From Caballeronia concitans (GTDB lineage Bacteria > Pseudomonadota > Gammaproteobacteria > Burkholderiales > Burkholderiaceae): a DNA stretch of 64,000 nt. Within the stretch, counting starts at the first letter, position 1. Each line of letters starts with the position of its first letter. Shown one piece after another: positions 21,684 to 46,998 of this stretch. Made by a program: the position numbers and the translations under genes. The notes beneath the pieces are model-generated. The model was not told the origin of the DNA. It made no database searches and saw only the letters and a list, made by a program, of their open reading frames with translations. The stretch lies in NCBI RefSeq assembly GCF_001544615.1, contig NZ_FCNV02000002.1:496001-560000 (forward strand), written 5' to 3'.

Positions 21684-22112
21684 TCAAGCTGCGACCTCGA
21701 GCTGATCGGCCGACAGATTGAACTCGCGCGCAATCGATTGAAGTCGCTCGGACCACTCCCACTTGCCGAACACGTCGTGTACGTTCTGAAGACAACTGAG
21801 CAGGCTGATCGTCGAAGGATCGTAGACGTTGATACGTGCTCGGAGCAGGCCCTTCCTGAGCGCCGCGATGCCGGCGTCCATATAGGCCGGAATGCCCGTC
21901 GACGATTGCGCGCCGACATAGCGCACGGGTACGCCCTCCATCGCGGTGACATAGTCTCGCGGCTTGATGAAACTGCCCACGGGGCATCCACCGCAGTATC
22001 CGCGATACGCGCCGCCACCGCGTGGCAGCAGCGCCGCCTGGCCCTGGGCGAAGAGATGGTCGACAGCGCGATCGAAGATCTGCTGATGGGTCAAGAAGGT
22101 CTGAGTTCGCAT
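21684..22112 (-). CDS. Conserved hypothetical protein with CGGCP motif
   Basis: 142 residues, no signal peptide or membrane helix. Notable features are a Gly/Cys-rich segment 'LPRGGGAYRGYCGGCPVGSFIKPRDYVTAMEG' and a helical C-terminus 'WSERLQSIAREFNLSADQL'. I do not recognise the family; the CxxCP motif could bind metal. It lies at the edge of the lower-GC island, 178 bases downstream of the ferredoxin reductase on the same strand, and may belong to it. Confidence 0.6.
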   Translation of the reverse strand: MRTQTFLTHQQIFDRAVDHLFAQGQAALLPRGGGAYRGYCGGCPVGSFIKPRDYVTAMEGVPVRYVGAQSSTGIPAYMDAGIAALRKGLLRARINVYDPSTISLLSCLQNVHDVFGKWEWSERLQSIAREFNLSADQLEVAA

Positions 22113-22290
22113 GATGCTGCTCCGCTATGTCCTAACGTGACGATCAGAGCCATCAGGTTAAGACGGACTGCTCTCTCTCGACATAGACGGAGCTTGCTTT
22201 GTGAAGCTATCGCGGATGCGCTTGCCGGCTACCGTGATTGCGACGAATCCGCATTGTATCGGCGCGTTCATCAAGACAGTTGGTGCGCTC

Positions 22291-23523
22291 TCACTCGCAA
22301 CGCACGGCGCCTGCATCGGTGATGAATCTTTCGACGCTTTGAATCGCTTCGTCATATGAAGCAGAAGAACTGATCTTGCCGCGCAAGATGGAGAAGGCTC
22401 TCGGTGAATTGATCGCTAACGCGCCAACGACGCGGCCTTCGTGTTCATACACACCGAGGAACGGCCGACTGACCGGCGTGCCCGTGAGGCTACGCAACTG
22501 ACCGATGTCCGTTCGTCCGACCGATTGAATCTTCACCCCGTACTGATCCGACCAGAAGTACGGGGCGGTTGAAAAGCTCGTTGCCGCCTCCCTGCCCGCC
22601 AGCAGATTCGCTGCGGCGTGTCTTCCTTGATCGCCGGACACCGTCCACTGTTCGCTTCGAGACGTTGTTCCGCTCCACTCGTTGAGCCAGCTTGCTACGT
22701 CACCAGCGGCATAGATTCGATCGTGTCCGACATTCAACGTTCGATCGCACACGAGTCCGTTGTCGATGTCCAGCCCAGAGCCCGCAAGCCATTCGGTGTT
22801 CGGCACGCAACCGATGCCGACGACCACGACATCGGCGGGAAGCTCGGTTCCATCCGACAGCACGACGGCTTGAACGCGATCTCTGCCGCGAATAGCGTGC
22901 ACGTGCGCATTGCAAAGCAACTGCACGCCGTTCTGTTCATGCAACGCACCGAGCTGCGCCCCGGTAGTGGCGCCGAAAGCCCGGATCAACGGAGCGTGAG
23001 CCGCCTCGAGCACCGTCACCTCTGCGCCGATCAAGCGCGCGCTCGACGCGACTTCCGCACCGATGAATCCCGCGCCGATGACAACCACGCGAGCGCCCGC
23101 GTGCAGTTGCTCTTTCAGCGCGAGTGCGTCGTCGAGCGTGCGCAGCGTGTGCATGCCGCTCAACGCTTTACCGATGGGAAGGGTGCGGGGTCGCGCGCCG
23201 GTTGCGATGATCAATCCGTCGAACGATATGTCGCCATCGTCCACGCTGACGCGCTGGTTGATTACGTCCAACGCAGTCGCCCGCTTGCCTAGCAGCGCAT
23301 CGACCCGCTGATCGCGAAACCACTGCGCGTCGCGATAGGCAAGAACCGACGAGTCGAGATCCCCGGTGAGAATCTGCTTCGAGAGCGGTGGCCGGTCATA
23401 GGGCAAATGGAACTCGTCTCCGATGAGAACGATCTTTCCGTCGAAGCCGTTCTGACGTAACGACTCTACAGCCTTCAGTCCGGCAACATTCGCACCAACG
23501 ACCAGGATTCGATTCAAAGTCAT
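22291..23523 (-). CDS. FAD-dependent ferredoxin/putidaredoxin-reductase-like oxidoreductase (copy 1)
   Basis: 410 residues from the ATG at 23523 (GAGGAG 4 bases upstream). FAD motif 'ILVVGANVAGLKAVESLRQNGFDG', NAD(P) motif 'VVVIGAGFIGAEVASSARLIG', 'LPYDRPPLSKQIL' and the closing 'RIYAAGDVASWLNEW' mark the BphA4/CamA/ThcD class. It transfers electrons from NAD(P)H to a small ferredoxin that feeds a Rieske or P450 oxygenase. A close paralogue is at 25889. The likely partners here are the [3Fe-4S] ferredoxin and Rieske oxygenase at 29957-31393. An 89-residue protein precedes it with a 37-base gap. Confidence 0.9.
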   Translation of the reverse strand: MTLNRILVVGANVAGLKAVESLRQNGFDGKIVLIGDEFHLPYDRPPLSKQILTGDLDSSVLAYRDAQWFRDQRVDALLGKRATALDVINQRVSVDDGDISFDGLIIATGARPRTLPIGKALSGMHTLRTLDDALALKEQLHAGARVVVIGAGFIGAEVASSARLIGAEVTVLEAAHAPLIRAFGATTGAQLGALHEQNGVQLLCNAHVHAIRGRDRVQAVVLSDGTELPADVVVVGIGCVPNTEWLAGSGLDIDNGLVCDRTLNVGHDRIYAAGDVASWLNEWSGTTSRSEQWTVSGDQGRHAAANLLAGREAATSFSTAPYFWSDQYGVKIQSVGRTDIGQLRSLTGTPVSRPFLGVYEHEGRVVGALAINSPRAFSILRGKISSSASYDEAIQSVERFITDAGAVRCE

Positions 23524-23560
23524 GCGACTCCTCGGAGTTTTACTTTTTTCCGGCATTTCG

Positions 23561-23830
23561 TCAGCTGAGCGACAGCTGCAACTCTCGTTCGGTTGAGCAC
23601 GTAAATGCACCCATGCTCGTCGGGCGACGGATTGCCGGGTAGACCCGCCAGTCGCCGCCTTCATGTTCGAAGAAATAGATCGTGACCGGCGCCGGCGCTT
23701 CGATGCCTTCCACGCGCACACATCGCCCTGTATTCGGACTGTCCACCTGTATGCGACGCACCCGCAACGGTTGGGTGTGATCGAACCATTTGTCGATCGC
23801 CATGCGCAGCGACGCGTGACCGGTGCTCAT
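23561..23830 (-). CDS. Hypothetical protein upstream of ferredoxin reductase (89 aa)
   Basis: 89 residues; AGGAGG 5 bases before the ATG at 23830 makes the start firm. The sequence looks like a compact alpha/beta domain ('MAIDKWFDHTQPLRVRRIQVDSPNTGRCVRVEGIEAPAPVTIYFFEHEGGDWRVYP') without Cys clusters, signal peptide or membrane helices. No family recognised. It is the first gene of a two-gene unit with the reductase and divergent from the NCS1 permease, so it probably belongs to the oxygenase system, perhaps as a coupling or accessory protein. The function is inference only. Confidence 0.65.
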   Translation of the reverse strand: MSTGHASLRMAIDKWFDHTQPLRVRRIQVDSPNTGRCVRVEGIEAPAPVTIYFFEHEGGDWRVYPAIRRPTSMGAFTCSTERELQLSLS

Positions 23831-24318
23831 ATGACCCTCCTACCGACGTATGCCAGTGTTCGTGATGAAGAGGGTATGTGAGGGGCCGGCGGCCAAACAT
23901 ATACGGAAGCGGGCTTCTCGAACTACCGTGAATGTTCAACCATTGCGCCGTATTGAGGCCGGGACCATGACAGTTTCGTCAGTCGTTGGAGTGCCGCGTC
24001 GTCATCGGCCTCCGATGGCCGTGGGGCTTGCGTTCGCGCGAAGGTTTCATCTGTACAGGCCATCGCGACATAACGGCTTTTCCAGACCGTCATGACGCTT
24101 TTGGACGATATCGCTCACTGCACATGGTCGGCGAATTTTTTAATGCCGACGATCTGATTAAGACGTGGTCATCCGCGTGTGCACCTCGTCAGCAGAACAA
24201 GCGGAATGCGCGACGATCATCGGCACCGGGGACAAGACAAAAAATCAAACGACGCCGGCTGCGCGACGCGCCGTCCGCGGTCGAAATAAAGCGTTTAACT
24301 TACACGGAGACACTACGC
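23831..24318. other. Divergent intergenic region of the catabolic island (488 bases)
   Basis: Separates the 89-residue gene (minus) from the NCS1 permease (plus). Upstream parts of the permease frame run through it but are not protein-like. It is less GC-rich than the neighbours, contains the palindrome CTGTACAG at 24051, and has A/T-rich patches near 24136-24142 and 24241-24246 that could hold promoters. No clear -35/-10 pair seen. Confidence 0.5.
24051..24058. promoter_or_regulatory. CTGTACAG palindrome upstream of NCS1 permease
   Basis: The same 8-bp palindrome core occurs within AACTGTACAGTT at 31595, upstream of the ferredoxin-Rieske unit of the same island. It is a candidate operator for the MocR regulator at 28301. 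An 8-bp palindrome also occurs by chance (other copies at 17700 and 55494), so confidence is low. Confidence 0.3.
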
Positions 24319-25806
24319 ATGCCTAATGATTATCAGAAGCGCTCGAATTTATGGAATGAGGATCTTGCTCCAACCGATGCCCGTCATCGCACATGGCGCT
24401 GGCGACACTTCGCCGCCCTGTGGACAGGCATGGTCATGTGCATTCCCTGCTATATCCTCGCGTCGGGACTCATCGATCAAGGCATGTCGGCGATGCAGGC
24501 AGTCGGCACCGTGCTGCTCGGAAACGCCGTCGTGCTCATCCCGATGCTGTTGATCGGGCACTCGGGAACCAAGTTCGGTGTGCCGTTCGCCGTCATCGTC
24601 CGCTCGTCGTTCGGCACGAAAGGCGCCAAGCTGCCCGCATTCCTGCGCGCCATCGTTGCGTGCGGCTGGTTCGGTATCCAGTGCTGGGTCGGCGGGAACG
24701 CTATCTATGCCGTCGGCAATATTCTCTTTCATGGCGCTCTGGTCGGACCCGTGATCGGCTGGGTAGGTATCGACGCAGCGCATCTGGCCTGCTTCTTTGT
24801 CTTCTGGGCCTTGCATCTCTACTTCATCTCGCGCGGCCCCGAGTCGATTCGATGGATAGAAACGATCACGGCCCCGGTCAAGATCGCTATCGTTCTCGCG
24901 CTTCTCTGGTGGGCTTATAACAAGGCGGGCGGCTTTGGTCCGATTGTTTCCGCGCCGTCTCAGTTCGTCGAAGGCGGCAAGAAGGCCGGTCAGTTCTGGT
25001 CGGTCTTCTGGCCCTCGCTGACTGCCATGATCGGCTTCTGGTCCACACTCGCACTCAATATCCCGGACTTCACCCGCTTCGCGAAGTCCCAGCGCGATCA
25101 ATGCGTAGGGCAGGCTGTCGGCCTTCCCGTGCCCATGGCCGGCCTTGCTTTCATAGGCGTTGCGGTGACATCGGCCACTGTCACGATTTACGGCAAGGCA
25201 ATCTGGGATCCCGTCGACCTGGCCGGAAGAATGGAAGGAATCGGCGTGGCGATTGGCCTTGCCATCATCACGCTCGACACGCTTTGCGTGAACCTGGCGG
25301 CGAACACCGTCGGACCCGCATATGATTTCGCGGCCATCTTCCCCCGGCGTATCACGTTCAGTACGGGGGGCTATCTGACTGCGGTGATCGGCGTGCTGAT
25401 GATGCCGTGGAAACTGATTGCATCGACGCAAGGCTTTATCTTCACCTGGCTCATCGGTTATAGCGCGTTGCTTGGGCCCGTACTCGGGATCATGCTCGCG
25501 GACTACTGGCTCATTCGACGCCGCGAGATCGAGGTCGACGATCTGTTCAAGGAGAACGGCATCTATCGCTACAAGAACGGTTGGAACCCGGCGGCACTCA
25601 TTGCTTTGATTCTTTCAGTGCTTCCTAACCTTCCTGGCTTCCTTGCCGTTGCCTTCCCTGATCGATTCAGTTGGATCCCCGCCGGCTTCAAGGACGTGAA
25701 CAACTACTCATGGTTCGTCGGAGTGTTTCTGGCCATCGTGATTTACTCGGTGTTGATGCGTCCGGCGCCTCGCAAATCCACTCACTTCGACATCGAAAGC
25801 GTCTAG
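24319..25806 (+). CDS. NCS1 family permease (cytosine/purine/uracil/thiamine/allantoin/hydantoin type)
   Basis: 495 residues with about 12 membrane segments. The start 'NLWNEDLAPTDARHRTWRWRHFAALWTGMVMCIPCYILASGLIDQGMS' is the characteristic NCS1 N-terminus (Mhp1/PucI/Fur type). Further signatures are 'GWFGIQCWVGGNAIYAV', 'WIETITAPVKI' and 'NLAANTVGPAYDF'. NCS1 carriers import nucleobases, hydantoins and related N-heterocycles with Na+ or H+. Its position between two ferredoxin reductases and near a Rieske oxygenase suggests it brings in the heterocyclic substrate of that oxygenase. Start at 24319 with GGAG upstream. Confidence 0.93.
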   Translation: MPNDYQKRSNLWNEDLAPTDARHRTWRWRHFAALWTGMVMCIPCYILASGLIDQGMSAMQAVGTVLLGNAVVLIPMLLIGHSGTKFGVPFAVIVRSSFGTKGAKLPAFLRAIVACGWFGIQCWVGGNAIYAVGNILFHGALVGPVIGWVGIDAAHLACFFVFWALHLYFISRGPESIRWIETITAPVKIAIVLALLWWAYNKAGGFGPIVSAPSQFVEGGKKAGQFWSVFWPSLTAMIGFWSTLALNIPDFTRFAKSQRDQCVGQAVGLPVPMAGLAFIGVAVTSATVTIYGKAIWDPVDLAGRMEGIGVAIGLAIITLDTLCVNLAANTVGPAYDFAAIFPRRITFSTGGYLTAVIGVLMMPWKLIASTQGFIFTWLIGYSALLGPVLGIMLADYWLIRRREIEVDDLFKENGIYRYKNGWNPAALIALILSVLPNLPGFLAVAFPDRFSWIPAGFKDVNNYSWFVGVFLAIVIYSVLMRPAPRKSTHFDIESV

Positions 25807-25818
25807 ATTTCTCATGGA

Positions 25819-25844
25819 GCCTTGCGCCTCGAGAGGCGCAAGGC
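25819..25844. repeat. Strong 12-bp-stem hairpin between NCS1 permease and reductase genes
   Basis: Perfect inverted repeat GCCTTGCGCCTC / GAGGCGCAAGGC with a 2-base centre (effective loop of about 4 bases), 12 bases after the permease stop. No T-run follows, so it is not a textbook intrinsic terminator; it may limit read-through or stabilise the permease mRNA, setting different levels for permease and reductase. Confidence 0.6.
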
Positions 25845-25888
25845 AGGAGGGTTCCCCGCTTTCACAATGAAGCGTCCAAGGAGACGGC

Positions 25889-27106
25889 ATGGTCATGAAC
25901 CGAATCGTCGTGGTGGGAGGCAGCGTCGCCGGTCTGCGTGCCGTGGAGACGTTGCGCCTGGAGGGGTTCGAGGGAGCCGTCACGCTCGTGTGCGGCGAGC
26001 CGCATCTGCCCTATGATCGGCCGCCTTTGACCAAGCAGATTCTCACCGGCGAGATAAACGCCGAGCAGTTGTGCTACCGCGACCATCAATGGTTCGAGCG
26101 GAACGCGGTAGACCTGTGCCTTGGCACGCCCGCGAGCGCGCTCGATATTTCCACGGGCCGTGTTCATCTCGGATCGAACTCGATACCTTTTGACGGGCTG
26201 ATAGTCGCAACCGGCGCCCGGCCGAAGTCATTCAGCCCCAGGAGTTCTCTACGCGGCATATTCACGCTGCGGACCGTGGACGACGCACTCGCGATCAAAG
26301 AGCGGATGTTGCCCGGCGTACGAATGATCTTGGTCGGAGCGGGATTCATCGGCTCCGAGATCGCTTCGAGCGCGGCGGCGTGTGGCGTGCAAGTGACGAT
26401 CGTGGAGCTTGCAGAAGCGGCCATGATTCGTGCCGTAGGGCCTCAATTGGGCCGAATTCTGGCGGGACTCCATGACGAGTTCGGCGTGAACGTTGTTTGC
26501 AACGCGCGCGTGACGGGCTTCGGCGGTAAAGGGTCCGTTGAAGCCGTCATGCTCGATGGCGGGTGGGAATTGCCGGCCGACATCGTCGTAGTGGGTATCG
26601 GCGTCGATCCTAACTGCGAATGGCTGATCGGATCGGGCTTGCGGATCGAGGATGGTCTCGCTTGCGACCGTACATTGAACGCCGGTCCCCGCAACGTCTA
26701 CGGCGCCGGCGATGTGGTTTCATGGCCGAACGAGTGGTGGGGCGGCGTCATGCGGGGTCAACAGTGGCTCGTGGCCGCGGACCAGGGCAAGCACGCCGCA
26801 AGGAATCTCCTTGCCGGTCCCGAGCGAGCCACCCCGTTTTCAACGATTCCCTACTTCTGGACCGACCAGTACGGATGTCGTGTACAGGCTGCCGGGAGAA
26901 CCGATCTGGGGCAACTGATCGCTGTCGCGGGCGGACATCGTCAGCGCCCGTTCATTGGCGTGTACAGGCACAACGGACAGCTGACCGGCGTAGTGACCAT
27001 CAACGCTCCGAAAGCGTTCGCCGCCTTGCGTACCTGCTTGCATGACCACAGCAGCTTCGATACCGCATGGGAGGTCGCGGTGAAGAACTGCCCGCCACCG
27101 GATTGA
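25889..27106 (+). CDS. FAD-dependent ferredoxin-reductase-like oxidoreductase (copy 2)
   Basis: 405 residues from the ATG at 25889 (AAGGAG upstream). Motifs as in copy 1: 'RIVVVGGSVAGLRAVETLRLEGFEG', 'LPYDRPPLTKQIL', 'MILVGAGFIGSEIASSAAACG', 'NVYGAGDVVSWPNEW'. The two paralogues align along their whole length but differ in many positions, so they are not a recent duplication. It follows the NCS1 permease on the same strand and converges on the CofE-like gene with a 15-base gap. It presumably reduces the island's ferredoxin or a second, unlinked one. Confidence 0.9.
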   Translation: MVMNRIVVVGGSVAGLRAVETLRLEGFEGAVTLVCGEPHLPYDRPPLTKQILTGEINAEQLCYRDHQWFERNAVDLCLGTPASALDISTGRVHLGSNSIPFDGLIVATGARPKSFSPRSSLRGIFTLRTVDDALAIKERMLPGVRMILVGAGFIGSEIASSAAACGVQVTIVELAEAAMIRAVGPQLGRILAGLHDEFGVNVVCNARVTGFGGKGSVEAVMLDGGWELPADIVVVGIGVDPNCEWLIGSGLRIEDGLACDRTLNAGPRNVYGAGDVVSWPNEWWGGVMRGQQWLVAADQGKHAARNLLAGPERATPFSTIPYFWTDQYGCRVQAAGRTDLGQLIAVAGGHRQRPFIGVYRHNGQLTGVVTINAPKAFAALRTCLHDHSSFDTAWEVAVKNCPPPD

Positions 27107-27121
27107 CTTCTGTTTCGACGT

Positions 27122-27901
27122 TCATTTGAACAGGTCTTCTTCCAAAGGACGTACATAACTCCGCGCGTGTGACTGGCTGCATGACTTCCACGCCAGCCCC
27201 CGGACGAGAATCGCCGGAGTGAGTCCGTCCTTCGCCATCAGAAGCCCGGCGGCGGCGGCCACCTCGTCTGCCGTCGCCTGTTGAGACACCTGCAACTGTC
27301 TGCCGAACGCGTCTCGCCTGCCGATCCAGCTATCCAGCGCCGGCACGCCCGATAAGCCGATGGCGACATTCACCAGACCGCGACGCCACGGCCGGCCGAA
27401 CGTATCGCTCACGATGACGCCCGGTTCGATGCCGGTGCGGTCGTAGATACGGCCCGCGATTCGACGCGCGCTGGCGTCCGGATCTTCGGGCAAAAGGAGA
27501 AGCGCATCATCGTCACCGACATTCGATTCATCTATCGCCGCGTTCGCGCAAATCCATCCTTGCCGATGGCGGCTGATCAGAACGCCGTCCGGCGGGTGAT
27601 CGCAAGCCCGCACGATCTCTGTCGACTCATCCAGCACGGCCTGAACCTTCCTGGCGTCTTTGCCCGTGATGCGTGCGTATTCGAGCGCTTCATCGGTCGG
27701 GACGATATCGGATGCTTTGCGCACGCGCCCTTCCGCTTTCGACACGATCTTTTGAGCCACGACCACGATGTCGCCACGCTGCCACCGCTTGCCGTTCGAC
27801 CTCATTGCGTCCGCGATCAGTCCGCCCACATCGTCGCCTGCTTTTACTTTGGGAATGCCTGTCAGAGCGAAGATTTCCAACGAATGTGCGTTCTTTTCCA
27901 A
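27122..27901 (-). CDS. CofE-like F420-0:gamma-glutamyl ligase family protein
   Basis: 259 residues from a TTG at 27901, selected because a perfect AGGAGG lies 5 bases upstream; the frame extends to 28015 without a start signal. It carries the CofE family motifs along its length: 'GIPKVKAGDDVGGLI', 'GDIVVVAQKIVSKAEGRV', 'WICANAAIDESNV', 'LLLPEDPDASARRI', 'GVIVSDTFGRPWRRGLVNVAIGLSG', 'ADEVAAAAGLLMAKDG'. CofE adds glutamate to F420-0 using GTP. No other F420 genes (cofC, cofD, fbiC) are present, so in this catabolic setting it may glutamylate another carboxylate. Divergent from the MocR regulator. Confidence 0.85.
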   Translation of the reverse strand: MEKNAHSLEIFALTGIPKVKAGDDVGGLIADAMRSNGKRWQRGDIVVVAQKIVSKAEGRVRKASDIVPTDEALEYARITGKDARKVQAVLDESTEIVRACDHPPDGVLISRHRQGWICANAAIDESNVGDDDALLLLPEDPDASARRIAGRIYDRTGIEPGVIVSDTFGRPWRRGLVNVAIGLSGVPALDSWIGRRDAFGRQLQVSQQATADEVAAAAGLLMAKDGLTPAILVRGLAWKSCSQSHARSYVRPLEEDLFK

Positions 27902-28300
27902 GTTGGCCTCCTGCGTGGCTGGAGAACTAAATCCCAGCAGAAATGCGATCTTCGCGTATCCAGTACGAGCATGTTCGGTGCGCCATCGATCCATATCGGC
28001 CCGTTGGTCGCACATGAATCGATATTAAGTGCACCGACGTCGACGAAACATGCTCAGCCTCGCGAACATCATCCGAGCGCTCCAGCTGGAATGCCATAAC
28101 GTAGTGGTGAAATGAGCAATACAGTTCGGACGCGATGACAGTGCTGTTAATTGACAAGGATTCGACCGCATGAAAAAGTCGATTCGTGCGCGCTACCGAA
28201 AGCAAACGAGTTCTGTAAGTTGTGGCCGAATAACCCGGCAGTTTCTCTCACGCCGCCGTTGCGCTTGCAATCCCCTCTAATCCTTCGTGCGAGAGGCAAT
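27902..28300. other. Divergent intergenic region, cofE-like / mocR (about 400 bases)
   Basis: No convincing gene. A TTGACA hexamer at 28151-28156 is a possible -35 for the MocR gene but no good -10 follows at 17 bases. MocR regulators often bind direct repeats in their own divergent promoter; I do not see an obvious long repeat here. Confidence 0.4.
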
Positions 28301-29821
28301 ATGACAGTCAGTCACTCCAGCGCCGACAGTGAAAGGATGAAGGTTCCGGAGACGCGCGACTCTACGCTCCTGGAGGAATTGCGAGTTGAGCGTCAACGTG
28401 GAATCAGCCTGGTCGGGCAGATCGTCGCCAAGCTTGAACAGATGGTGGAATCGGGTCGGCTTCGAGCGGGAACCAAGACGCCCTCCGTCCGCGAGCTCGC
28501 GAAGCAGCTCGGCGTCAGCACCTTTACCGTGACAGAAGCCTACGACGTCCTCGTTTCGAAGCGCGTTCTCAGTTCGAGACCGGGCTCAGGGTACTTCGTC
28601 ACGGCCCGCGTCGCGCATGTGCCGGTGCTTCGCAGCGAAGCGTTGGCCTCGCGCGTGGTCGATCCCGACGCGTGGATGCCAGTGCTCGTATGGAATCGCA
28701 ATCCGGATTTGTTGCCGGTCGGTTCGGGCGTGCTTCCGCCCGAATGGTGCAGTGAGAGCATGATTCTGCAAGCGGTCCGGCAGGCCATCAAGATGCCGGC
28801 GGAGCGGCTCGTCGGATACGGCCATCCGTTGGGCTTTTACCGGCTCCGCCAGCTTCTCGCGCGCGGCTTCACGGAGCGATTCTGTGCGGTCGCACCGGAA
28901 CAGATCATATTGACTAACGGGGTTTCCCACGGCCTGGATCTGGTCGTACGAAGTCTCTTGAAGCCCGGCGACACCGTTCTGATTGAAGATCCGACTTACT
29001 TCAATATTCACCATCTTCTTCGCAGCTATGGCGTCAAGGTGGTTTCGGTGAAACGAAATCACGATGGAATCGATCTCGATCAGCTTGCTTCATTGGCAGC
29101 GCTGCACCGGCCCAAGGCCATGTATGTCAACACGGTCCTGCAGAATCCACTCTCTACAACGCTTTCGCCCGCCCAGGCGTATCGCATCATTGCTCTGGCG
29201 GAGCAGTTCGATTTTCTGATCATCGAAGACGATATCTTCCGCGACCTCGCTTCTCCATCTGATCCTTCTCTCGCGTCGCTGGACGGACTCAACCGGGTGA
29301 TTTGTCTCGGCGGATTCTCCAAAACCGTCGCTCCGTCTCTTCGAACAGGCTACATTCTGTGTCCGGGTCAGCTCGTATCGGATGTGGTACGTACCAAGAT
29401 GGCTTGCGGACTGACAACGTCCGAGTTGAACGAACGCTGCATTCTCGAGGTGCTTTCGGATCCCGGGCACCGCAGATATCTCGATCGGCTGCGCATGCGG
29501 CTTGCCAACGAGCGCGAGCAGTTTCTATCGGTGTTGACCGACGTGGGCATGACCGCGCTCGCCACGCCTAAAGGTGGCCTCTTCGTTAGCGCAGGATGGC
29601 TTGTTCCGCCCAGTGCTCAATTCAACGCGGAACTCATCACTGAAAAGGCCTCGGAAGCCGGACTCGCCTTCTCACGCGGAGAACTCTTTTCCTTGTCCGC
29701 CAAGACGGAAACCGTGTGGTTTCGATTCAACGTGGCTTACTGTGGGGCGCCGAAACTCAACTCGTTCCTGCGTGAGGTTTCGCGGATGGCTGCGCATCTT
29801 GCGAGGGTGCCCGGTCTATAG
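28301..29821 (+). CDS. MocR-type (GntR-aminotransferase fusion) transcriptional regulator
   Basis: 506 residues from the ATG at 28301 (GAGAGG upstream). A GntR winged helix lies at about residues 45-105 ('GISLVGQIVAKLEQMVESGRLRAGTKTPSVRELAKQLGVSTFTVTEAYDVLVSKRVLSSRPGSGYFV'). The rest is a fold-type I aminotransferase domain: 'LTNGVSHGLDLVVRSLLKPGDTVLIEDPTY', 'IIEDDIFRDL', and the PLP lysine Lys341 in 'LGGFSKTVAPSLRTGYI'. Such proteins use PLP as a sensor of an amino-acid-like effector. It sits centrally in the island and is the only regulator there, so it probably controls it. Confidence 0.92.
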   Translation: MTVSHSSADSERMKVPETRDSTLLEELRVERQRGISLVGQIVAKLEQMVESGRLRAGTKTPSVRELAKQLGVSTFTVTEAYDVLVSKRVLSSRPGSGYFVTARVAHVPVLRSEALASRVVDPDAWMPVLVWNRNPDLLPVGSGVLPPEWCSESMILQAVRQAIKMPAERLVGYGHPLGFYRLRQLLARGFTERFCAVAPEQIILTNGVSHGLDLVVRSLLKPGDTVLIEDPTYFNIHHLLRSYGVKVVSVKRNHDGIDLDQLASLAALHRPKAMYVNTVLQNPLSTTLSPAQAYRIIALAEQFDFLIIEDDIFRDLASPSDPSLASLDGLNRVICLGGFSKTVAPSLRTGYILCPGQLVSDVVRTKMACGLTTSELNERCILEVLSDPGHRRYLDRLRMRLANEREQFLSVLTDVGMTALATPKGGLFVSAGWLVPPSAQFNAELITEKASEAGLAFSRGELFSLSAKTETVWFRFNVAYCGAPKLNSFLREVSRMAAHLARVPGL

Positions 29822-29877
29822 GACGGCGCGAGTAACTTCATCGAGCCGCCTGCTTCGAATGCGCTATTTCTTGTTAT

Positions 29878-29905
29878 CCGCCGGATAGCCGATCGACTCC
29901 GGCGG
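29878..29905. terminator. Hairpin between convergent mocR and Rieske oxygenase genes
   Basis: Inverted repeat CCGCCGGA / TCCGGCGG, 8-bp stem with a 12-base loop, between the two convergent stops. There is no strong T-run on either side (ATTTCTTGTT precedes it on the plus strand), so a bidirectional terminator is plausible but not certain. Confidence 0.45.
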
Positions 29906-29956
29906 CGTGAACAGATCACAACAGGTCTTGCACGGCGGTTGCCGTGTTAGGTGCGA

Positions 29957-31159
29957 TTAATATTCGCCCGTTTCGTTGAGCGTCCGATTGAGCGCTTCAG
30001 GTCCTTCCATCGCGGCCATCGCAATCTCGCGCATCCACTTTCGCCAGATGATGTCGGGCTTGTCCGCAGGCACGGAAACCTCGTCACGGGATTCGCCGAT
30101 AGCACGCGGACGGTGAGACGCGACGAGCGGCAAGTCTTCCGTCAGCACGATCGACTGCAACGCCAGATGCTCCTGCTCCGACGATCCGTCCGTCGAATGG
30201 CACGTGTACCAATAGCTCCGACAGTTCTCGGCGTCGATCGGAGTCGCGTGCATGAAGATCTGCGTGTCCCTCGTTTCCGACCATTTGAAGAACAGAAGAA
30301 CCGTGAACGGCATATGAACGTGATACGTGCCCGGGCCGAGCATCTTCGAGTCCGGACCCGTCGGCGGACCGTACGTGGCGTCTCCCGCGTTGAAGGCAAG
30401 GAAGGTGTCCACCTGGAATTCCAGACGCTTTTTGTGCTGCGTGACGGGATAGGGCCTGAAACGCGTGTGCGGAGGACCGCCGAGCGTTCCCTGATGCCCG
30501 TAAGCGAAGTGCGTGACATCGGTGAAGTTTCCAATCCGACGTCCGGCCGACGCGGGCCAAAGATACGGCTCGCCGAGATGGCATGTCATCTCGCTCGAAT
30601 CCCACGCAGGGAAATGCGGAATCGTCGTATCCGCCCCGCCTTTCATGCGTACCCAAATGAGATCGTACTTGACTTCGCATTCGTACTCTTTCAGCTTCGC
30701 ACGGGCCGGGATCGCATCGCCTTCTTGCTGCGACGGAATATCCGTGCATTTCCCCGCCTGGTTGTAGCACCAGCCGTGGTAGCGGCAGCGAAGCTGATCG
30801 CCTTCGATCCATCCCAGGCCGAGCGACGCACCGCGATGCGCGCACTTGTCATCGAACGCACAGATGCGGCCACCCAGATCCACGAGCACGATGCGTTCGC
30901 CCAGCAGCATCGTGGTCATCGGACCTTTGGCGCCGTGCGTATGGGACCGGAATTCCTTGACAGTCGCCGCGACGTGCCAGAAGTACTTCCACGTTTCGGC
31001 TGTCGAACCGAGGTCGTAAGCGACGTCAGGCTTGCTCAGCGGAACGAGCGTTTTGTACTCCGGCGGCTTGCACGGACTGCCGGGATCGATCATGTCGGAT
31101 GATGTGATCCACTCCGGCGGATGATACGAGAGATTTGCATGCAACCAGTTCTGCGCCAT
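29957..31159 (-). CDS. Rieske non-heme iron oxygenase, alpha (oxygenase) subunit
   Basis: 400 residues. The Rieske [2Fe-2S] ligands are C106, H108, C125 and H128 ('KCAHRGASLG', 'CRYHGW'); the mononuclear iron site is D214, H217, H222 in 'NFTDVTHFAYGHQG'. It is the single-subunit (homotrimer, VanA/DdmC/N-demethylase-like) type, with no beta subunit gene. Such enzymes do O- or N-demethylation or ring hydroxylation. It is downstream of a [3Fe-4S] ferredoxin gene with an 18-base gap; electrons probably come from one of the reductases at 22291 or 25889. The NCS1 permease suggests an N-heterocyclic substrate. The frame stays open for 31 codons after the stop. Confidence 0.93.
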   Translation of the reverse strand: MAQNWLHANLSYHPPEWITSSDMIDPGSPCKPPEYKTLVPLSKPDVAYDLGSTAETWKYFWHVAATVKEFRSHTHGAKGPMTTMLLGERIVLVDLGGRICAFDDKCAHRGASLGLGWIEGDQLRCRYHGWCYNQAGKCTDIPSQQEGDAIPARAKLKEYECEVKYDLIWVRMKGGADTTIPHFPAWDSSEMTCHLGEPYLWPASAGRRIGNFTDVTHFAYGHQGTLGGPPHTRFRPYPVTQHKKRLEFQVDTFLAFNAGDATYGPPTGPDSKMLGPGTYHVHMPFTVLLFFKWSETRDTQIFMHATPIDAENCRSYWYTCHSTDGSSEQEHLALQSIVLTEDLPLVASHRPRAIGESRDEVSVPADKPDIIWRKWMREIAMAAMEGPEALNRTLNETGEY

Positions 31160-31177
31160 TCTTGTCTCCCAGATGTT

Positions 31178-31393
31178 CTAGTACAGGTCCACTTCCTTAT
31201 CGTTCTCGAATAGAGCAATACATTGCGTCGGGCAGCTTCGCGCAGCCTTGACGAGCTGATGAAGCGGGCACGCGCCCGCCTCGGGCAATACGCCCGCAAC
31301 GCCGGAATCGAGAAGTACGAAGGCTTGGGGCGCCAAACTCACGCACATTTTGGATCCACAGCAAATGGATTGATCCAGTTCTACTTTGATCAC
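31178..31393 (-). CDS. [3Fe-4S]-type ferredoxin
   Basis: 71 residues from a GTG at 31393 with GGAG 6 bases upstream; a GTG at 31408 is possible but overlaps that site. Cluster ligands C11, C17 and C54 in 'ICCGSKMCVSLAP' and 'SCPTQC' follow the CxxxxxC...CP pattern, with Ser at the middle position where a fourth Cys would sit in a [4Fe-4S] protein. These ferredoxins usually serve P450s; pairing with a Rieske oxygenase is less common but documented. Very acidic near the C-terminus. Forms an operon with the Rieske gene. Confidence 0.88.
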   Translation of the reverse strand: MIKVELDQSICCGSKMCVSLAPQAFVLLDSGVAGVLPEAGACPLHQLVKAARSCPTQCIALFENDKEVDLY

Positions 31394-31594
31394 GAAAGTC
31401 TCCTGCACGGATTAGTCTTCGACTGTTAGTTCACGTTGAATACTCTCGACAGCAGCATCGAAGGGCGAGCGATACCTGCACCCGGCGCAGTCGATGATTG
31501 CATGATCGGCAGTCGACGCATCATCGAACAGAAGCAGTCGGTATTCGTTTCTTCTAGCGTTATGGGGTAGTCGACAAACCGTCTAGCGCTGTCC

Positions 31595-31606
31595 AACTGT
31601 ACAGTT
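31595..31606. promoter_or_regulatory. 12-bp palindrome AACTGTACAGTT upstream of the ferredoxin-Rieske unit
   Basis: Perfect palindrome in the gap between the alanine-racemase-like gene and the ferredoxin gene, about 200 bases upstream of the latter. It contains the CTGTACAG core also seen at 24051 upstream of the permease. Candidate operator. Confidence 0.4.
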
Positions 31607-31665
31607 CCGGCGCCCCCGGCCGTCTTTCCATTTCGAGCGCCATCCGTCGATTGACAAAGACACGC

Positions 31666-32721
31666 TTAAACGATCTCCAGCGGCAGGCGCGAACTGACCG
31701 ACGACAAGAGCCGGCTCGCAGTCGTTCCCGAGTGCGCCGCGACGAGATCCACGCTCACATGCTGCCCCCAAAGCTCGACTTCGCTTCCTACATGAACGCC
31801 TGGACAGGGATCGAGATCCACGACGATGGTGTCCATCGAAACTCTCTCCAGCACACGCGTCACGATGCCGTCGATTGCAACGGGTGTTCCGACCGCGGCG
31901 GTGTCCGGATAACCGTCCGCATATCCGCAGGCCACGACACCTATCTTGCGCGCCCCGCCCCAGCGACTTCCCGTAGTACTTGCCGACGCCACATCTCTGA
32001 TGCAAACAACCTTGCTGACGAATCTCATGACCGGCAGAAAACCCCCGAGGGCCGAAGTTCCTGGCGCAGACGCGGGCGAAGCGCCGTATAAGATGACCCC
32101 CGCTCTCACCCAATCGGGCATCGCACGCGGTTGATCGATAATTTCAGCGGAGCCGCCATAACTTCTGTCGCCCTTCAAGCCCGAAACCGTTTCGCTAAAC
32201 TCAATGACTTCGCGCTTTCTTTCGTCTTTCGTCGTGGCGTCAATGCGGCCATAAAGCGCTGTCGATCTGATTGCTTCGACTCGCTTTACCCGCTCGATGA
32301 CGTCGCGCAGTTCGTTCGGATGGAACCCGAGAATACCGTTGCGGTTCGCCACAGTGACTTCGATATAAATCGGCTTGGCGAATCTCGCTAGCTCCAGGAG
32401 ACGCAATTGTTCCTCGGTCTGAACGGCCAGCGTCAGCGTGTGTTCCTCGACTGCGTAGAGGTCGCTTCGGTTGTATGTCCCGTCGACGATCAGCACCGGT
32501 CCTTGCCAGCCTGTCTTCCTAAGCTCGACGCCCTGCTCCACGTCACAGACGGCGAATCCAGTGGTCGTGCGAAGGTGCGGAAGAACGACGTCGATCCGAT
32601 GACCATACGCATTCGCCTTCACGAGCGCCCAGGTTTTCGAATGAGGCGCGAGGCGACGGATAAGTGCAAGGTTGTGATGCAACGCACTTGTATCGATCTT
32701 CAGCCCGGTTGGACGCGGCAT
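31666..32721 (-). CDS. Alanine racemase-like PLP protein lacking the catalytic tyrosine
   Basis: 351 residues from the ATG at 32721 (GGAG 7 bases upstream). The fold-type III PLP barrel is clear: Lys35 in 'WALVKANAYGHR', 'MPDWVRAGVILYGASP', 'IGVVACGYADGYPDTA', 'RVSMDTIVVDLDP'. Several key positions differ from true alanine racemases: the 'VGYG.RW' segment holding the second catalytic base reads 'STTGSRW', so Tyr is absent; 'GMNRLGF' is 'NRNGILGF'; and the usual 'MSHFA' strand is not recognisable. It is therefore probably not a normal racemase but a repurposed or decaying one. Same strand as the ferredoxin-Rieske unit, 272 bases upstream. Confidence 0.8.
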   Translation of the reverse strand: MPRPTGLKIDTSALHHNLALIRRLAPHSKTWALVKANAYGHRIDVVLPHLRTTTGFAVCDVEQGVELRKTGWQGPVLIVDGTYNRSDLYAVEEHTLTLAVQTEEQLRLLELARFAKPIYIEVTVANRNGILGFHPNELRDVIERVKRVEAIRSTALYGRIDATTKDERKREVIEFSETVSGLKGDRSYGGSAEIIDQPRAMPDWVRAGVILYGASPASAPGTSALGGFLPVMRFVSKVVCIRDVASASTTGSRWGGARKIGVVACGYADGYPDTAAVGTPVAIDGIVTRVLERVSMDTIVVDLDPCPGVHVGSEVELWGQHVSVDLVAAHSGTTASRLLSSVSSRLPLEIV

Positions 32722-33219
32722 AGTTCGTCTCCAGATTTCCAGAGTCATTTCGCCGTCGAGCGATCCAGATCCTTCGACGGCGATGAAACGTCAATGTAAC
32801 GACGACCAGCGCGGGAGCCCCGATACAGTTCGATACCCATATGCCTCAGCGTTCAGTTGCGATGCAACATGCCGTATTGGTCCAGATTCCAGCATGAGCA
32901 ATGTCCGCATGCGTTATTGTGATTCGGTATCCTTAGTTATCAAAGCCGGACGGCGATCTAAGCCGTTAATCCAGGATTGAAGACCTCGCCCTTTCGATCC
33001 GTTCAGGAATTCGGAGCTATACGGTTTCTTGACACATGCACCGACTGCCCATGTTGCTCCGAATTTTGGCGGTCCACTCTACAGGAACGAGGTCGGGACA
33101 AGACCTATCAAAAATCAAAGGGCCGTGACCCAAGGTCCAGCAACGTCGGAAGGTTTAGCGCAAATGCGCGCAACGCTCCGACAGGAGGACAATCCGAAAA
33201 TCGATGGGAAGAGTGAAAG
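32722..33219. other. Non-coding gap before the IS3 remnant (about 500 bases)
   Basis: No open frame here looks like protein. Base composition is lower in GC than the flanks. If the IS3 element once had a left end it should fall between about 33000 and 33200; I could not identify a matching right-end inverted repeat. Possibly decayed island DNA. Confidence 0.5.
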
Positions 33220-33516
33220 ATGGCGAAGAGGAACACGAGATTCGACGCGAGTTTCAAGCGGGAAGTGGCCCGGATGGTTCGAGACCAGAGGCTATCGGTC
33301 AGCGAAGTGTGCCGGTCGATGAACCTGGTCGAGGCAGCCGTGCGGCGTTGGGTCGCCCAATACGATGGGAAGCCCGCTCGCGATCCGGGCGAGAATGAGT
33401 CGTTCACGGAGGAACAGCAGCGCATCCGGCAACTGGAAGCGGAAAACCGGCAACTGCGCGAAGACAACGTACTCTTGAAGAGAGCGTCGGCCATCCTCGC
33501 GCGGGAACTCGAATGA
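33220..33516 (+). pseudogene. IS3 family transposase OrfA remnant (orfB missing)
   Basis: 98 residues: an N-terminal helix-turn-helix ('RFDASFKREVARMVRDQRLSVSEVCRSMNLVEAAVRRWVAQY') and a C-terminal leucine zipper ('RIRQLEAENRQLREDNVLLKRASAILAREL'), the standard OrfA of IS3 elements. The catalytic OrfB (DDE domain) that should follow by -1 frameshift is absent: ssuB ends 48 bases later at 33564. Upstream GGAG-type sites remain. The element cannot transpose by itself and probably marks one edge of the lower-GC island. Confidence 0.85.
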
Positions 33517-33563
33517 CTTCGGCGTGGTGAATCAGTGGCCGACAGAACGCCGAATCAGATCAT

Positions 33564-34355
33564 TCACGCCTGTTTCAAGATCCGCCGCAACACGCGCTCC
33601 TCCAGCGCGGACGCTTCCGCCGATGCCTGCCTGCGAGGCCGTGCAAGCGGCACTGATTGATCCAGCGCAATGCGCCCTTCCTCGATCAACAGAATGCGAT
33701 CGCCGAGCACCACGGCTTCATGCACGTCGTGCGTGACCAGCAATGCGGTGAAGCGATGCTCGCGCCATAGCCGTTCGATCAGCGCATGCATTTCAATGCG
33801 CGTGAGCGCATCGAGCGCGCCGAGCGGTTCATCGAGCAGCAGCAGTTGCGGCCTATGCACCAGCGCCCGCGCCAGCGCCACGCGCTGTCTTTGTCCGCCC
33901 GACAATTGCGACGGCCAGTCGTTTTCGCGCTCCAGCAGCCCGACTTCGTTGAGCACCGCGCGAGCCTGATCGCGTGCGCCGCGTTTCAATCCGAGCATGA
34001 CGTTCTGCAGCACGGTCTTCCACGGCAAGAGGCGTGCGTCCTGAAACATGATGCGCGTATCGAGCGTCGCGCCATTGCCCGCGCGCTTGATCAATGCGCC
34101 GCCGGTCGGCGTTTCCAGTTCGGCGATAAGGCGCAGCAGCGTCGACTTTCCACATCCGCTGCGCCCGACGATCGTGACGAAACTGCCCTGTTCGATCGAC
34201 AAATCTAGCGCCGACAATACCGTACGGTCTCCGAATCGTTTTTCGACGCCACGCAATTCGACGGCCACGTCGACTGCAGTGCGCGCATGCGGTTGTGCGC
34301 GCTCGACCGCGAAGCGCTCTTCCATCCTCAACGAAACAGATGCGGTCGCGCTCAT
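33564..34355 (-). CDS. ssuB: Aliphatic sulfonate ABC transporter ATP-binding protein
   Basis: 263 residues from the ATG at 34355 (GAGGAAAG upstream). Walker A '[17 protein letters not shown]', signature '[14 protein letters not shown]', Walker B '[14 protein letters not shown]', H-loop '[11 protein letters not shown]' are intact. Preceding genes are ssuC (4-base overlap) and ssuD, the classical sulfonate-sulfur locus. It couples ATP hydrolysis to uptake of alkanesulfonates. The IS3 remnant lies 48 bases beyond its stop. Confidence 0.93.
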
Positions 34356-35194
34356 GCCTTTCCTCCTCGTTGATACGCGGGATGCCAGCGCAGCGCCACG
34401 CGTTCTAATGCTTTCGCGAGCACATCCGCGAGCTTGCCGAGCACCGCGTAAAGCAGAATGCCCACGACGACGACATCGGTTTGCAGGAACTCGCGCGCGT
34501 TCATCGTCATATAGCCGATGCCCGATTGCGCGGAAATCGTTTCGGCCACGATCAGCATCACCCACATGAGGCCGAGCGCGAAACGCACGCCGACCAGAAT
34601 GGAAGGCAACGCGCCCGGCAGAATCACATCGCGATACAACGCGAAGCCCTTCACGCCATAACTGCGCGCCATTTCGATGAGGTTCGCATCGACCGAACGA
34701 ATGCCGTGAAACGTGTTGACGTAGACCGGAAAGAACACACCCAGCGCAACCAGAAAGATCTTCGCTTCTTCCTCGATACCGAACCACAGGATCACGAGCG
34801 GAATCATGGCGAGCGCGGGAATGTTGCGGATCATCTGCACGGTGGAATCGAGCGCGACTTCGAACGGCCGAAAGAGTCCCGTCCAAAGTCCGAGCACGAG
34901 CCCCACGCCGCCGCCGATTGCAAGCCCGAGCAGCGCGCGCCACGCGCTGACCTTCACGTTGGCCCACATATCGCCGGACTGAACGAGCGCCCACGCCGAT
35001 TTGACGACGGCAAGCGGCTCCGGCAACACGCGCGTGGACAGCACGCCCGAGCGCGCGGCGTATTCCCAGAGCAGCAGAATCGCAACCGGCACGAGCCACG
35101 GCGCGATGGCCGCGCCCACGCGCCTGAACACCGGACCCGCGCTGCGTTTGACCGGCTGCGTCGCGGGTATCGTTTGAGTGAGGGCATCGGCCAT
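34352..35194 (-). CDS. ssuC: Aliphatic sulfonate ABC transporter permease
   Basis: 280 residues with about six membrane segments ('[20 protein letters not shown]' first) and the EAA loop '[29 protein letters not shown]'. The length and position between ssuD and ssuB identify it as the sulfonate permease. Its stop overlaps the ssuB start (ATGA), implying coupled translation. A conserved NitT/TauT-family fold. Confidence 0.93.
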
Positions 35195-35230
35195 GCTGCT
35201 AGTTCCTTCGATGATGTGACACGTTCACGA

Positions 35231-36394
35231 TCAGCTCTGGCTCGCGTTCGGCAGATAGCTATTGCCGACGATCTCACCGAAGGGTCCCGACAGCGGCCCC
35301 GAACGCTTCTCCACTTGCGCGCCGCGTTCGCCGAGCAGTGGGAACACGAGTTCGGCGAAACGGTACGACTCTTCCAGGTGCGGATAGCCGGACAGAATGA
35401 ACGTCTCGATGCCGAGGTCCGCGTATTCCTTCATGCGCGCCGCCACTTGTTCCGGATTCCCAACTAATGCCGTTCCCGCGCCGCCGCGCACGAGCCCCAC
35501 GCCGGCCCACAGGTTGGGATAGATTTCGAGCGTCTCGCGGCCGCCGCGCTTGCCGCCGTGCAGTTGAGCCATGCGCCGCTGGCCTTCGGAATCCATCTTG
35601 GAGAACGCAGCTTGCGCACGCGCGACGGTTTCATCGTCGAGATGGCTGATGAGCGCGTCCGCTGCCGCCCATGCTTCGTCCTCGGTTTCACGCACGATCA
35701 CATGCAGACGAATGCCGAAGCGTATCTTGCGGCCCTGCGCTTCGGCGCGGCTGCGGATATCGTCGAGCTTCTTCTTCACGGCTTCGGGCGGTTCGCCCCA
35801 CGTGAGATACGTGTCGATGTGCGTCGCGGCGATATCGTGCGCCGCCGCCGACGATCCGCCGAACCACAGCGGCGGATGCGGCGTCTGCACCGGCGGATAC
35901 AGCGCCTTGCCGCCCTTCGATTGCAGATGCTTGCCGTCGAAGTCGATCGCTTCGTTCGTATGCGATGCGCTCAGCAGATTGCGCCAGATATGCAGGAATT
36001 CATCGGTAATTTCATAGCGCGTGTCGTGATCGACGAAGACGCCATCGCCTTCCAGCTCGGCCGGATCGCCGCCCGTCACGACATTGATAAGCAGGCGTCC
36101 GTCCGAAAGACGGTCGAACGTTGCGGCCATGCGTGCGGCGAGTCCCGGCGAGGAAAGACCCGGACGTATCGCGACGAGGAACTTCAGCTTCTTCGTGGCC
36201 GCGATGAGGCTCGATGCAACCACCCATGCGTCCTCGCACGAACGTCCCGTGGGCAGCAGCACGCCCTGATAGCCGAGCGTATCGGCGGCAACTGCGATCT
36301 GCTGAAAATACGAGAGGTCAGCGGCGCGCGCCCCTTTCGACGTGCCCAGATAACGGCTGTCTCCGTGTGTCGGGATGAACCAGAACACATTCAT
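35231..36394 (-). CDS. ssuD: FMNH2-dependent alkanesulfonate monooxygenase
   Basis: 387 residues, the normal length of SsuD. '[19 protein letters not shown]', '[29 protein letters not shown]', '[27 protein letters not shown]', and '[15 protein letters not shown]' are typical of the family. It desulfonates alkanesulfonates to aldehydes and sulfite using FMNH2 and O2. No ssuE is in the operon; a FMN reductase-like protein is encoded at 19527, but whether it partners is unknown. GAGGAG ribosome-binding site. Confidence 0.95.
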
Positions 36395-36684
36395 GCGCTA
36401 CTCCTCTTTGCCTTTCACAAGTATTGTCGATGCCGTCGAAGACGAGTAAGCCAGTTTAAGTACGCGATTCACGGCTGCGAACAATGGAATTCAGCTTTCC
36501 ATTTCTGCTTTGGTGCTTTGGAAGCGGTCGCGTCTCGCTCATTACCATGACGATGATTTGCTTAGATGCAAACGTCATTTCACGGCGCTTTCATGCTTCG
36601 CTAGCATGGCAAGCCGGGCCGCGATGACACGCGACGCGCATGAGCTATGCGGCCTCTGAATCCATATGACGGAGGCTTTTCATC

Positions 36685-46995: not shown

Positions 46996-46998
46996 GAA

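Follow-up and report, generated by a model that had tools for sequence, protein, structure and literature searches.

Among the closest described relatives of the system considered here are two groups of Rieske non-haem iron oxygenases. The Ndm system, according to PMC12445004, relies on a multidomain reductase, NdmD; in type V systems, as set out by Kweon et al. (2008, PMC2358900), the partners are a [3Fe-4S] ferredoxin and a GR-type reductase, and the oxygenase is of the alpha-n beta-n group. We have analyzed a 64,000-nt stretch of the Caballeronia concitans genome (referred to as the window, at its full length), in which a region first listed as an island at positions 21684-33516 encodes an oxygenase related to NdmA and NdmB, electron-transfer partners of the type V kinds, an NCS1-family permease, a MocR-type regulator and an orphan CofE. 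The cluster is an uncommon variant of known parts, probably working or recently working, and its novelty lies in how these parts are combined and not in their kind. The best-ranked matches in the openly licensed literature, a scope that leaves out most subscription papers, held no account of this gene combination. We give an even chance to the proposal that the island carries, in acquired and rearranged form, a rare catabolic module for uptake and oxygenation of cyclic ureides, with CofE as an intact passenger.

The oxygenase (29957..31159, minus strand) resembles NdmA and NdmB in having a single type of alpha subunit, built of a Rieske and a VanA_C-like catalytic domain, in its identity of about 35-42% to Ndm-type proteins, and in a common NFTD-x2-HFA stretch. 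Its nearest solved structures were NdmB (E 8.2e-65) and NdmA (E 3.8e-62), with alignments that spanned 334 and 341 residues of the query, respectively, followed by SxtDIOX and SxtT. The motifs CAH / CRYH and NFTDVTHFAYGH are kept in the alignment, so that both the Rieske-ligand pattern and the D-x2-H-x4-H iron-site pattern are present; we take these to be the ligands of the Rieske cluster and of the iron site. Yet, in a 15-row tree the oxygenases of the window, Paraburkholderia oxyphila and a second relative, G664, formed a clade of their own (100/100), apart from nine Ndm-type rows (92/95), which places the window enzyme outside the NdmA/NdmB clade and in a sister clade to it. In this tree two rows were matched afterwards to the solved NdmA and NdmB chains (E 6.5e-198 and 5.8e-211), which were not rows themselves, and the other Ndm labels were assigned by us; three rows (HpxD and two other P. 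oxyphila oxygenases) are long-branched, and the deeper branching order is unsure.

Relatives of this oxygenase were seldom found. Six of its peptides, sought in one genome per species across 84,980 species in a scan that detects close relatives only, occurred in 6 stretches, 1 of them coding a relative (P. oxyphila, about 87%). Whole-genome searches, in which the window genome itself was counted and the samples overlapped, gave matches in 1 of 58 genomes of the genus (E 1e-75), 2 of 398 of the family (E 1e-75; the window genome and G664, at 76%), 1 of 399 of the order (E 1e-72) and 1 of 398 of the phylum (E 1e-80); for the last three samples at most four candidates were scored per genome. At a looser limit of E 1e-60, 4 of 150 relatives matched, and the three other than the window genome (37-42% identity) lie in clusters that, as read from their open reading frames (ORFs), are of the methylxanthine type.

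All three genomes in which the oxygenase was found (about 87.5% identity in P. oxyphila, 76% in G664) also carry the NCS1 permease, a GR-type reductase, the ferredoxin and the MocR protein. In G664 this five-gene core lies within 12.9 kb of one contig, in the order NCS1, an ORF that matches neither a Pfam nor an NCBIfam model, reductase, ferredoxin, oxygenase, HyuA, HyuB, isochorismatase-family amidase, TetR and MocR. In P. oxyphila the core is divided over two contigs: one (L035) holds a co-directional reductase-ferredoxin-oxygenase run with a TetR-like ORF and a facing MocR gene, and the other (L029) holds NCS1, an 89-aa ORF, reductase 1 and a second MocR gene. These contigs begin near their core genes (the reductase at 0.4 kb and NCS1 at 2.8 kb, respectively) and so may join, full linkage being likely. 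The co-occurrence by which the first-pass annotation had asked to be judged was thus seen for the five core genes, together in 3 of 3 genomes, and was not seen for CofE and an alanine racemase, which are scattered. Its broader suggestion, that an N-heterocycle is taken up and then oxygenated or N-demethylated by the Rieske enzyme, in company with a MocR protein, is supported by the five-gene core and by the position of NdmB and NdmA as closest solved relatives.

The small ferredoxin (76 aa; 31178..31408, minus strand) adjoins the oxygenase in all three genomes. Because its second cluster cysteine, when aligned to the ferredoxin 1rof, is replaced by serine and three cysteines are kept, its cluster is probably of the [3Fe-4S] type. 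Two GR-type FAD ferredoxin reductases are present, both assigned by family matches. The ortholog of reductase 2 (25889..27106, plus strand) heads the reductase-ferredoxin-Rieske run in P. oxyphila and G664; reductase 1 (22291..23526, minus strand; Pyr_redox_2 and Reductase_C) is 63% identical to a P. oxyphila protein (L029:5515-6726) that also adjoins an 89-aa ORF and NCS1. The window system accordingly has the same kinds of electron-transfer partners as the type V systems described above, insofar as the cysteines indicate the cluster type, and differs from them in its oxygenase, which is NdmA-like and not alpha-n beta-n; no oxygenase beta-subunit family was found in the island, among the 11 ORFs scanned with Pfam. 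From the Ndm system the window system differs in having a separate ferredoxin and GR-type reductase in place of NdmD.

The permease (24319..25806, plus strand, from a predicted start at 24319; PF02133, and TIGR00800 above cut-off) is 84-85% identical to its P. oxyphila counterpart and 73-74% to that of G664, and its closest solved structure is the Mhp1 hydantoin permease (E 6e-36). The regulator (28301..29821, plus strand, from a predicted start at 28301) joins a GntR winged helix (PF00392) to an aminotransferase-like domain (Aminotran_1_2, PF00155) in one protein, as in MocR proteins, with GabR among its solved relatives; it is 79% and 69% identical to the two P. oxyphila MocR proteins and 66% to that of G664, and synteny suggests that it may control the cluster. 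The ratios of nonsynonymous to synonymous substitution (dN/dS, NG86 method) of the core genes were 0.03-0.16 where computable; dS was undefined for 2 of 13 pairs (CofE and MocR of the window against P. oxyphila) and otherwise 1.5-2.7, near saturation.

The neighborhoods of these genes offer clues to the substrate. The permease is 62-65% identical to NCS1 permeases that adjoin dihydropyrimidinases, one in P. oxyphila (L031) and one elsewhere in the window genome, where a cluster at 133-141 kb of contig C12 (L045) holds NCS1, PreA (748.7 bits, where 335 is the cut-off), a dihydropyrimidinase above its cut-off and a carbamoylase-family amidase; the presence of PreA beside NCS1 was checked in this genome only. 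This is the likeness of the island to the reductive pyrimidine pathway (PreT/PreA, dihydropyrimidinase, carbamoylase). The difference is that an oxygenase would precede the ring chemistry and that the island is without dihydropyrimidinase; indeed, the whole window gave no match to this enzyme. Both P. oxyphila core contigs carry dihydropyrimidinase, and the P. oxyphila contigs also carry CofG, CofH, CofC, CofD, CofE, NpdG and alanine dehydrogenase, with methylmalonate-semialdehyde dehydrogenase on the NCS1 contig. In G664 a pair of the ATP-dependent HyuA/HyuB kind, which includes N-methylhydantoinase, caprolactamase, 5-oxoprolinase and acetophenone carboxylase, directly follows the oxygenase; in contrast, neither the island nor the P. 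oxyphila stretches searched hold such a pair, and the window has a distant pair in its right flank. Cyclic ureides appear to be the substrate class that best fits both neighborhoods, and N-demethylation is favored, though not proved, by kinship to the Ndm enzymes and by a formaldehyde-activating enzyme (TIGR03126, 11309-11842) on the P. oxyphila NCS1 contig. The same contig also encodes a member of the beta-RFAP synthase family (TIGR00144, 17825-18907), and the two hint that formaldehyde is released upstream. Separately, just before the dihydropyrimidinase on the other P. oxyphila contig (L035:7273-12131), there is a second oxygenase set, comprising a VanB-type reductase, two Rieske oxygenases (27-30% identical to the window enzyme), a small ferredoxin-like ORF and a reductase.

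In the pathway we propose, the NCS1 permease would import a cyclic ureide, pyrimidine- or hydantoin-like and possibly N-methylated, and electrons from NAD(P)H would pass through a GR-type reductase and the [3Fe-4S]-type ferredoxin to the NdmA/B-like oxygenase, which would hydroxylate or N-demethylate the ring. Ring opening would fall to separate enzymes, namely the dihydropyrimidinase near the F420 genes in P. oxyphila and the ATP-dependent HyuA/HyuB with amidase in G664; in the window genome the product might enter the chromosomal PreA / dihydropyrimidinase / carbamoylase cluster. The MocR protein may sense an amino-acid product by way of pyridoxal phosphate (PLP), and CofE would be a leftover from a larger ancestral island, of which one part concerned F420. 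If the core does act on N-methyl pyrimidines or hydantoins, it would provide an oxygenase for such compounds, with NdmA-like chemistry run on a different electron chain.

Several observations weigh against this proposal. The ring-opening genes differ between P. oxyphila and G664 and none is in the island; in P. oxyphila, distances of 10 and 25 kb separate the dihydropyrimidinases from the oxygenase and NCS1; and the HyuA/HyuB pair of the window (45.3-49.0 kb) cannot be tied to the island. The core is known from three genomes only, and that of P. oxyphila is split over two contigs. No formaldehyde-oxidizing gene was seen in the island. The block that holds the oxygenase is inverted relative to both relatives, so that the cluster may be impaired. 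Also, the HyuA/HyuB proteins of G664 are nearest to caprolactamase and its HyuA is near acetophenone carboxylase, which leaves room for a lactam substrate or a carboxylation.

The lactam pathway, in which the oxygenase would hydroxylate a cyclic amide ahead of hydrolysis, we consider improbable. In its favor, caprolactamase subunits are the best models for the G664 pair (507 and 240 bits), and among solved structures HyuA is closest to acetophenone carboxylase, followed by 5-oxoprolinase, N-methylhydantoinase and acetone carboxylase. However, both scores are below the caprolactamase cut-off of 1000, and the kinship of the permease to Mhp1 and to dihydropyrimidinase-adjoining permeases, together with the P. 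oxyphila dihydropyrimidinases, favors cyclic ureides. The HyuA/HyuB pair of the window itself (45310-49035, minus strand) is distant, being 32% and 27% identical to that of G664 and about 12 kb beyond the island.

It should be noted that the gene order of the window differs from that of its relatives. Reductase, ferredoxin and oxygenase are co-directional in both P. oxyphila and G664; in the window, reductase 2 is encoded on the plus strand, whereas the oxygenase and ferredoxin are encoded on the minus strand and are separated from it by the MocR and CofE genes. Flipping the block from approximately 27.1 to 31.4 kb recovers the P. oxyphila order of reductase, ferredoxin and oxygenase with a facing MocR gene, and the window therefore seems to hold a derived form, in which the ferredoxin-oxygenase-MocR-CofE block was inverted and parted from the permease-reductase pair. 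No clear recombination site was found at the ends of the inversion among the 25 of 52 inverted-repeat pairs listed, the longest of which is formed by the two reductase genes. Such a split, unaccompanied by ring-opening enzymes, raises the prospect that the cluster is a non-working remnant, and the IS3 remnant at the island edge and the orphaned state of CofE fit with this. We hold it to be no likelier than the lactam pathway, in that every core gene has an open frame and a history of evolution under constraint, and the genome has a dihydropyrimidine cluster of its own.

A purine alkaloid (methylxanthine) N-demethylase system is slightly less probable still. NdmB and NdmA are the closest characterized enzymes over the alignment lengths given above, but the oxygenase falls outside their clade, and the Ndm-type clusters of Cupriavidus EM10 and P. 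caffeinilytica carry an NCS2-type permease, a PDR/VanB-type reductase and glutathione-dependent formaldehyde genes, none of which was seen in the island; for further Ndm-type clusters, similar ORFs were read by eye. The NCS1 permease of the island thus differs from the NCS2 type in the Ndm-type clusters examined.

The most doubtful of the proposed roles is that of CofE (coenzyme F420-0:L-glutamate ligase; 27122..27901, minus strand), which the first-pass annotation had treated as a step of the pathway. Its gene is intact. Its likely start, a TTG at 27901 and not at 28015 as first given, stands five bases after AGGAGG and aligns with residue 1 of the P. oxyphila CofE; the frame is open over 259 codons; and the protein keeps 48 of 48 columns invariant in nine other CofE proteins. 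Its dN/dS was 0.18 against the G089 copy, compared with 0.17 between the F420-cluster copies of P. oxyphila and G089, synonymous sites being saturated against P. oxyphila. Judged by its start, dN/dS and invariant columns, the gene is not a decayed pseudogene, and recent orphaning is possible. The protein scores 258.6 bits with the equivalog model TIGR01916 (cut-off 180.65) and is below the cut-offs of PRK13293 and PRK13294.

The partners of CofE, in contrast, appear to be lost. Neither CofD nor CofH had any match in the window genome (99.97% complete), in searches that gave matches in 10 and 11, respectively, of 14 control genomes, with scores that passed the cut-off in 10 and 3 of them; the search for CofC and CofG did not extend to the whole genome. 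A complete F420 pathway is accordingly rejected as the setting of this CofE. Within 19-37 kb of the window, queries from ORFs of eight relatives' stretches gave no CofC, CofD, CofG, CofH or NpdG match at E 0.01; one Agrobacterium LLM protein matched an ssuD-like gene there. CofE was found in 7 of 150 relatives at E 1e-15 (own genome counted), and its nearest kin, at about 60-67% identity, sit in F420 operons of G089 (about 65%), P. oxyphila and Variovorax. Only in the window is it near the core. The 39 kb read on and around the core of G664, to which the search in that genome was confined, contain no CofE, and in P. oxyphila NCS1 and an intact copy are 29 kb apart, the oxygenase and a fragment 15 kb.

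Action of CofE in the pathway, by addition of L-glutamate to a carboxylic intermediate, is thus very unlikely: the intact frame with its AGGAGG site, the start in common with P. oxyphila, the invariant columns, the dN/dS value and the adjoining MocR gene would agree with such a step, and its absence from the G664 stretch, the F420 operons around its closest kin and its score with the F420 equivalog model speak against it. More probably, CofE is a passenger that stayed intact when its partners, the other F420 genes of a larger ancestral island, were lost, perhaps in recent times. It may have acquired a new use, an idea behind which there is only the intactness of the gene. A homarine-type pathway was dropped when the openly licensed literature yielded no comparable cluster.

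According to a 2021 review (PMC8498797), the question of why Proteobacteria make F420 has been left open. The finding that F420 genes adjoin dihydropyrimidinase in relatives bears on this question. In G089 (L020, 3825-16094) a complete F420 operon is accompanied by a TIGR03842 LLM oxidoreductase (510.5 bits, cut-off 295.45), NpdG, a carbamoylase-family amidase and a dihydropyrimidinase, a set that resembles a cyclic-ureide route dependent on F420; an aldehyde dehydrogenase and an alanine dehydrogenase, both assigned by similarity to those of P. oxyphila, are also present. The CofE of the window is like that of such proteobacterial clusters, but its genome is without detectable CofD or CofH. 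Given these neighborhoods, F420-dependent reduction of cyclic ureides is directly testable. A more speculative extension of our proposal, which we regard as tentative and on balance doubtful, is that a further NdmA-like clade, driven by type V partners, starts an undescribed catabolic route for N-substituted cyclic ureides with two alternative endings, one reductive and F420-dependent, the other ATP-dependent and catalyzed by HyuA/HyuB, and that CofE outlived F420 synthesis and may glutamylate something else.

Other F420 clusters were seen in the relatives. In P. oxyphila, contig C162 (L035) has CofG, CofH, CofC and NpdG, with CofD and CofE as fragments only, and contig C203 (L034) has CofD, CofE and NpdG, with a CofG fragment only and no CofH or CofC match; the two clusters complement each other, and each contig breaks off within an LLM-like gene, after 25 codons. 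On plasmid 3 of Variovorax sp. PBL-E5 (L010), from linuron-contaminated soil, an F420 operon adjoins a dihydropyrimidinase/allantoinase-like hydrolase and a carbon-nitrogen hydrolase, and the LLM protein there scores under the TIGR03842 cut-off.

The genes first listed for the island (NCS1, two GR-type reductases, ferredoxin, CofE, MocR, Rieske oxygenase and the IS3-type OrfA) are all present and open, although that listing omitted two. One is the 89-aa ORF (23561..23830, minus strand), which is conserved beside reductase 1 in P. oxyphila (48% identity over 65 aa to L029:4835-5029) and has no match in the G664 stretches searched and none in Pfam or NCBIfam; its single-sequence AlphaFold model was poor (pLDDT 55.9) and was used for no inference. 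The other is an alanine racemase (31666..32748, minus strand; TIGR00492), which is outside the conserved core and was found in the window only, with no tblastn match at E 1e-4 among the 14 stretches searched, of which 13 came from relatives and 1 from the window genome. Its gene precedes that of the ferredoxin and has the same orientation, and its best listed relative in the plasmid collection is 43% identical.

The lower G+C content and looser codon use first described for the island are found, but not with a sharp edge. G+C was 0.589 in 21684-33516 and 0.641 in the rest of the window, and in a scan by 500-base steps the 11.8-kb stretches of lowest G+C started at 21501 and 22001. Third-position G+C (GC3) was 0.63-0.73 in the eight main island genes and 0.74-0.88 in 19 flank genes of our choosing, which also served as the codon reference; codon log-likelihoods were -1.00 to -1.37 and -0.73 to -1.02, respectively, the oxygenase being the exception that was not set apart from the flank genes. 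However, seven adjoining flank genes, counted separately from the 19, overlap the island values (GC3 0.68-0.78; codon log-likelihood -0.90 to -1.19), and G+C is low across 19-37 kb as a whole. The acquired genes probably span about 22.3 to 33.0 kb. A 142-aa ORF at 21684-22112, listed at first within the island, is probably flank, because its family occurs in 14 Caballeronia/Paraburkholderia records of the plasmid collection (67-79% identity in the ten listed). At the other edge is an IS3-family OrfA remnant (33220..33516, plus strand; HTH_Tnp_1 in Pfam), with only 47 bases to the next gene, too little for OrfB. The genes to its right were read by eye as ssuB, ssuC and ssuD, an alkanesulfonate-type cluster (33220-37641 including OrfA), which suggests insertion next to ssu genes.

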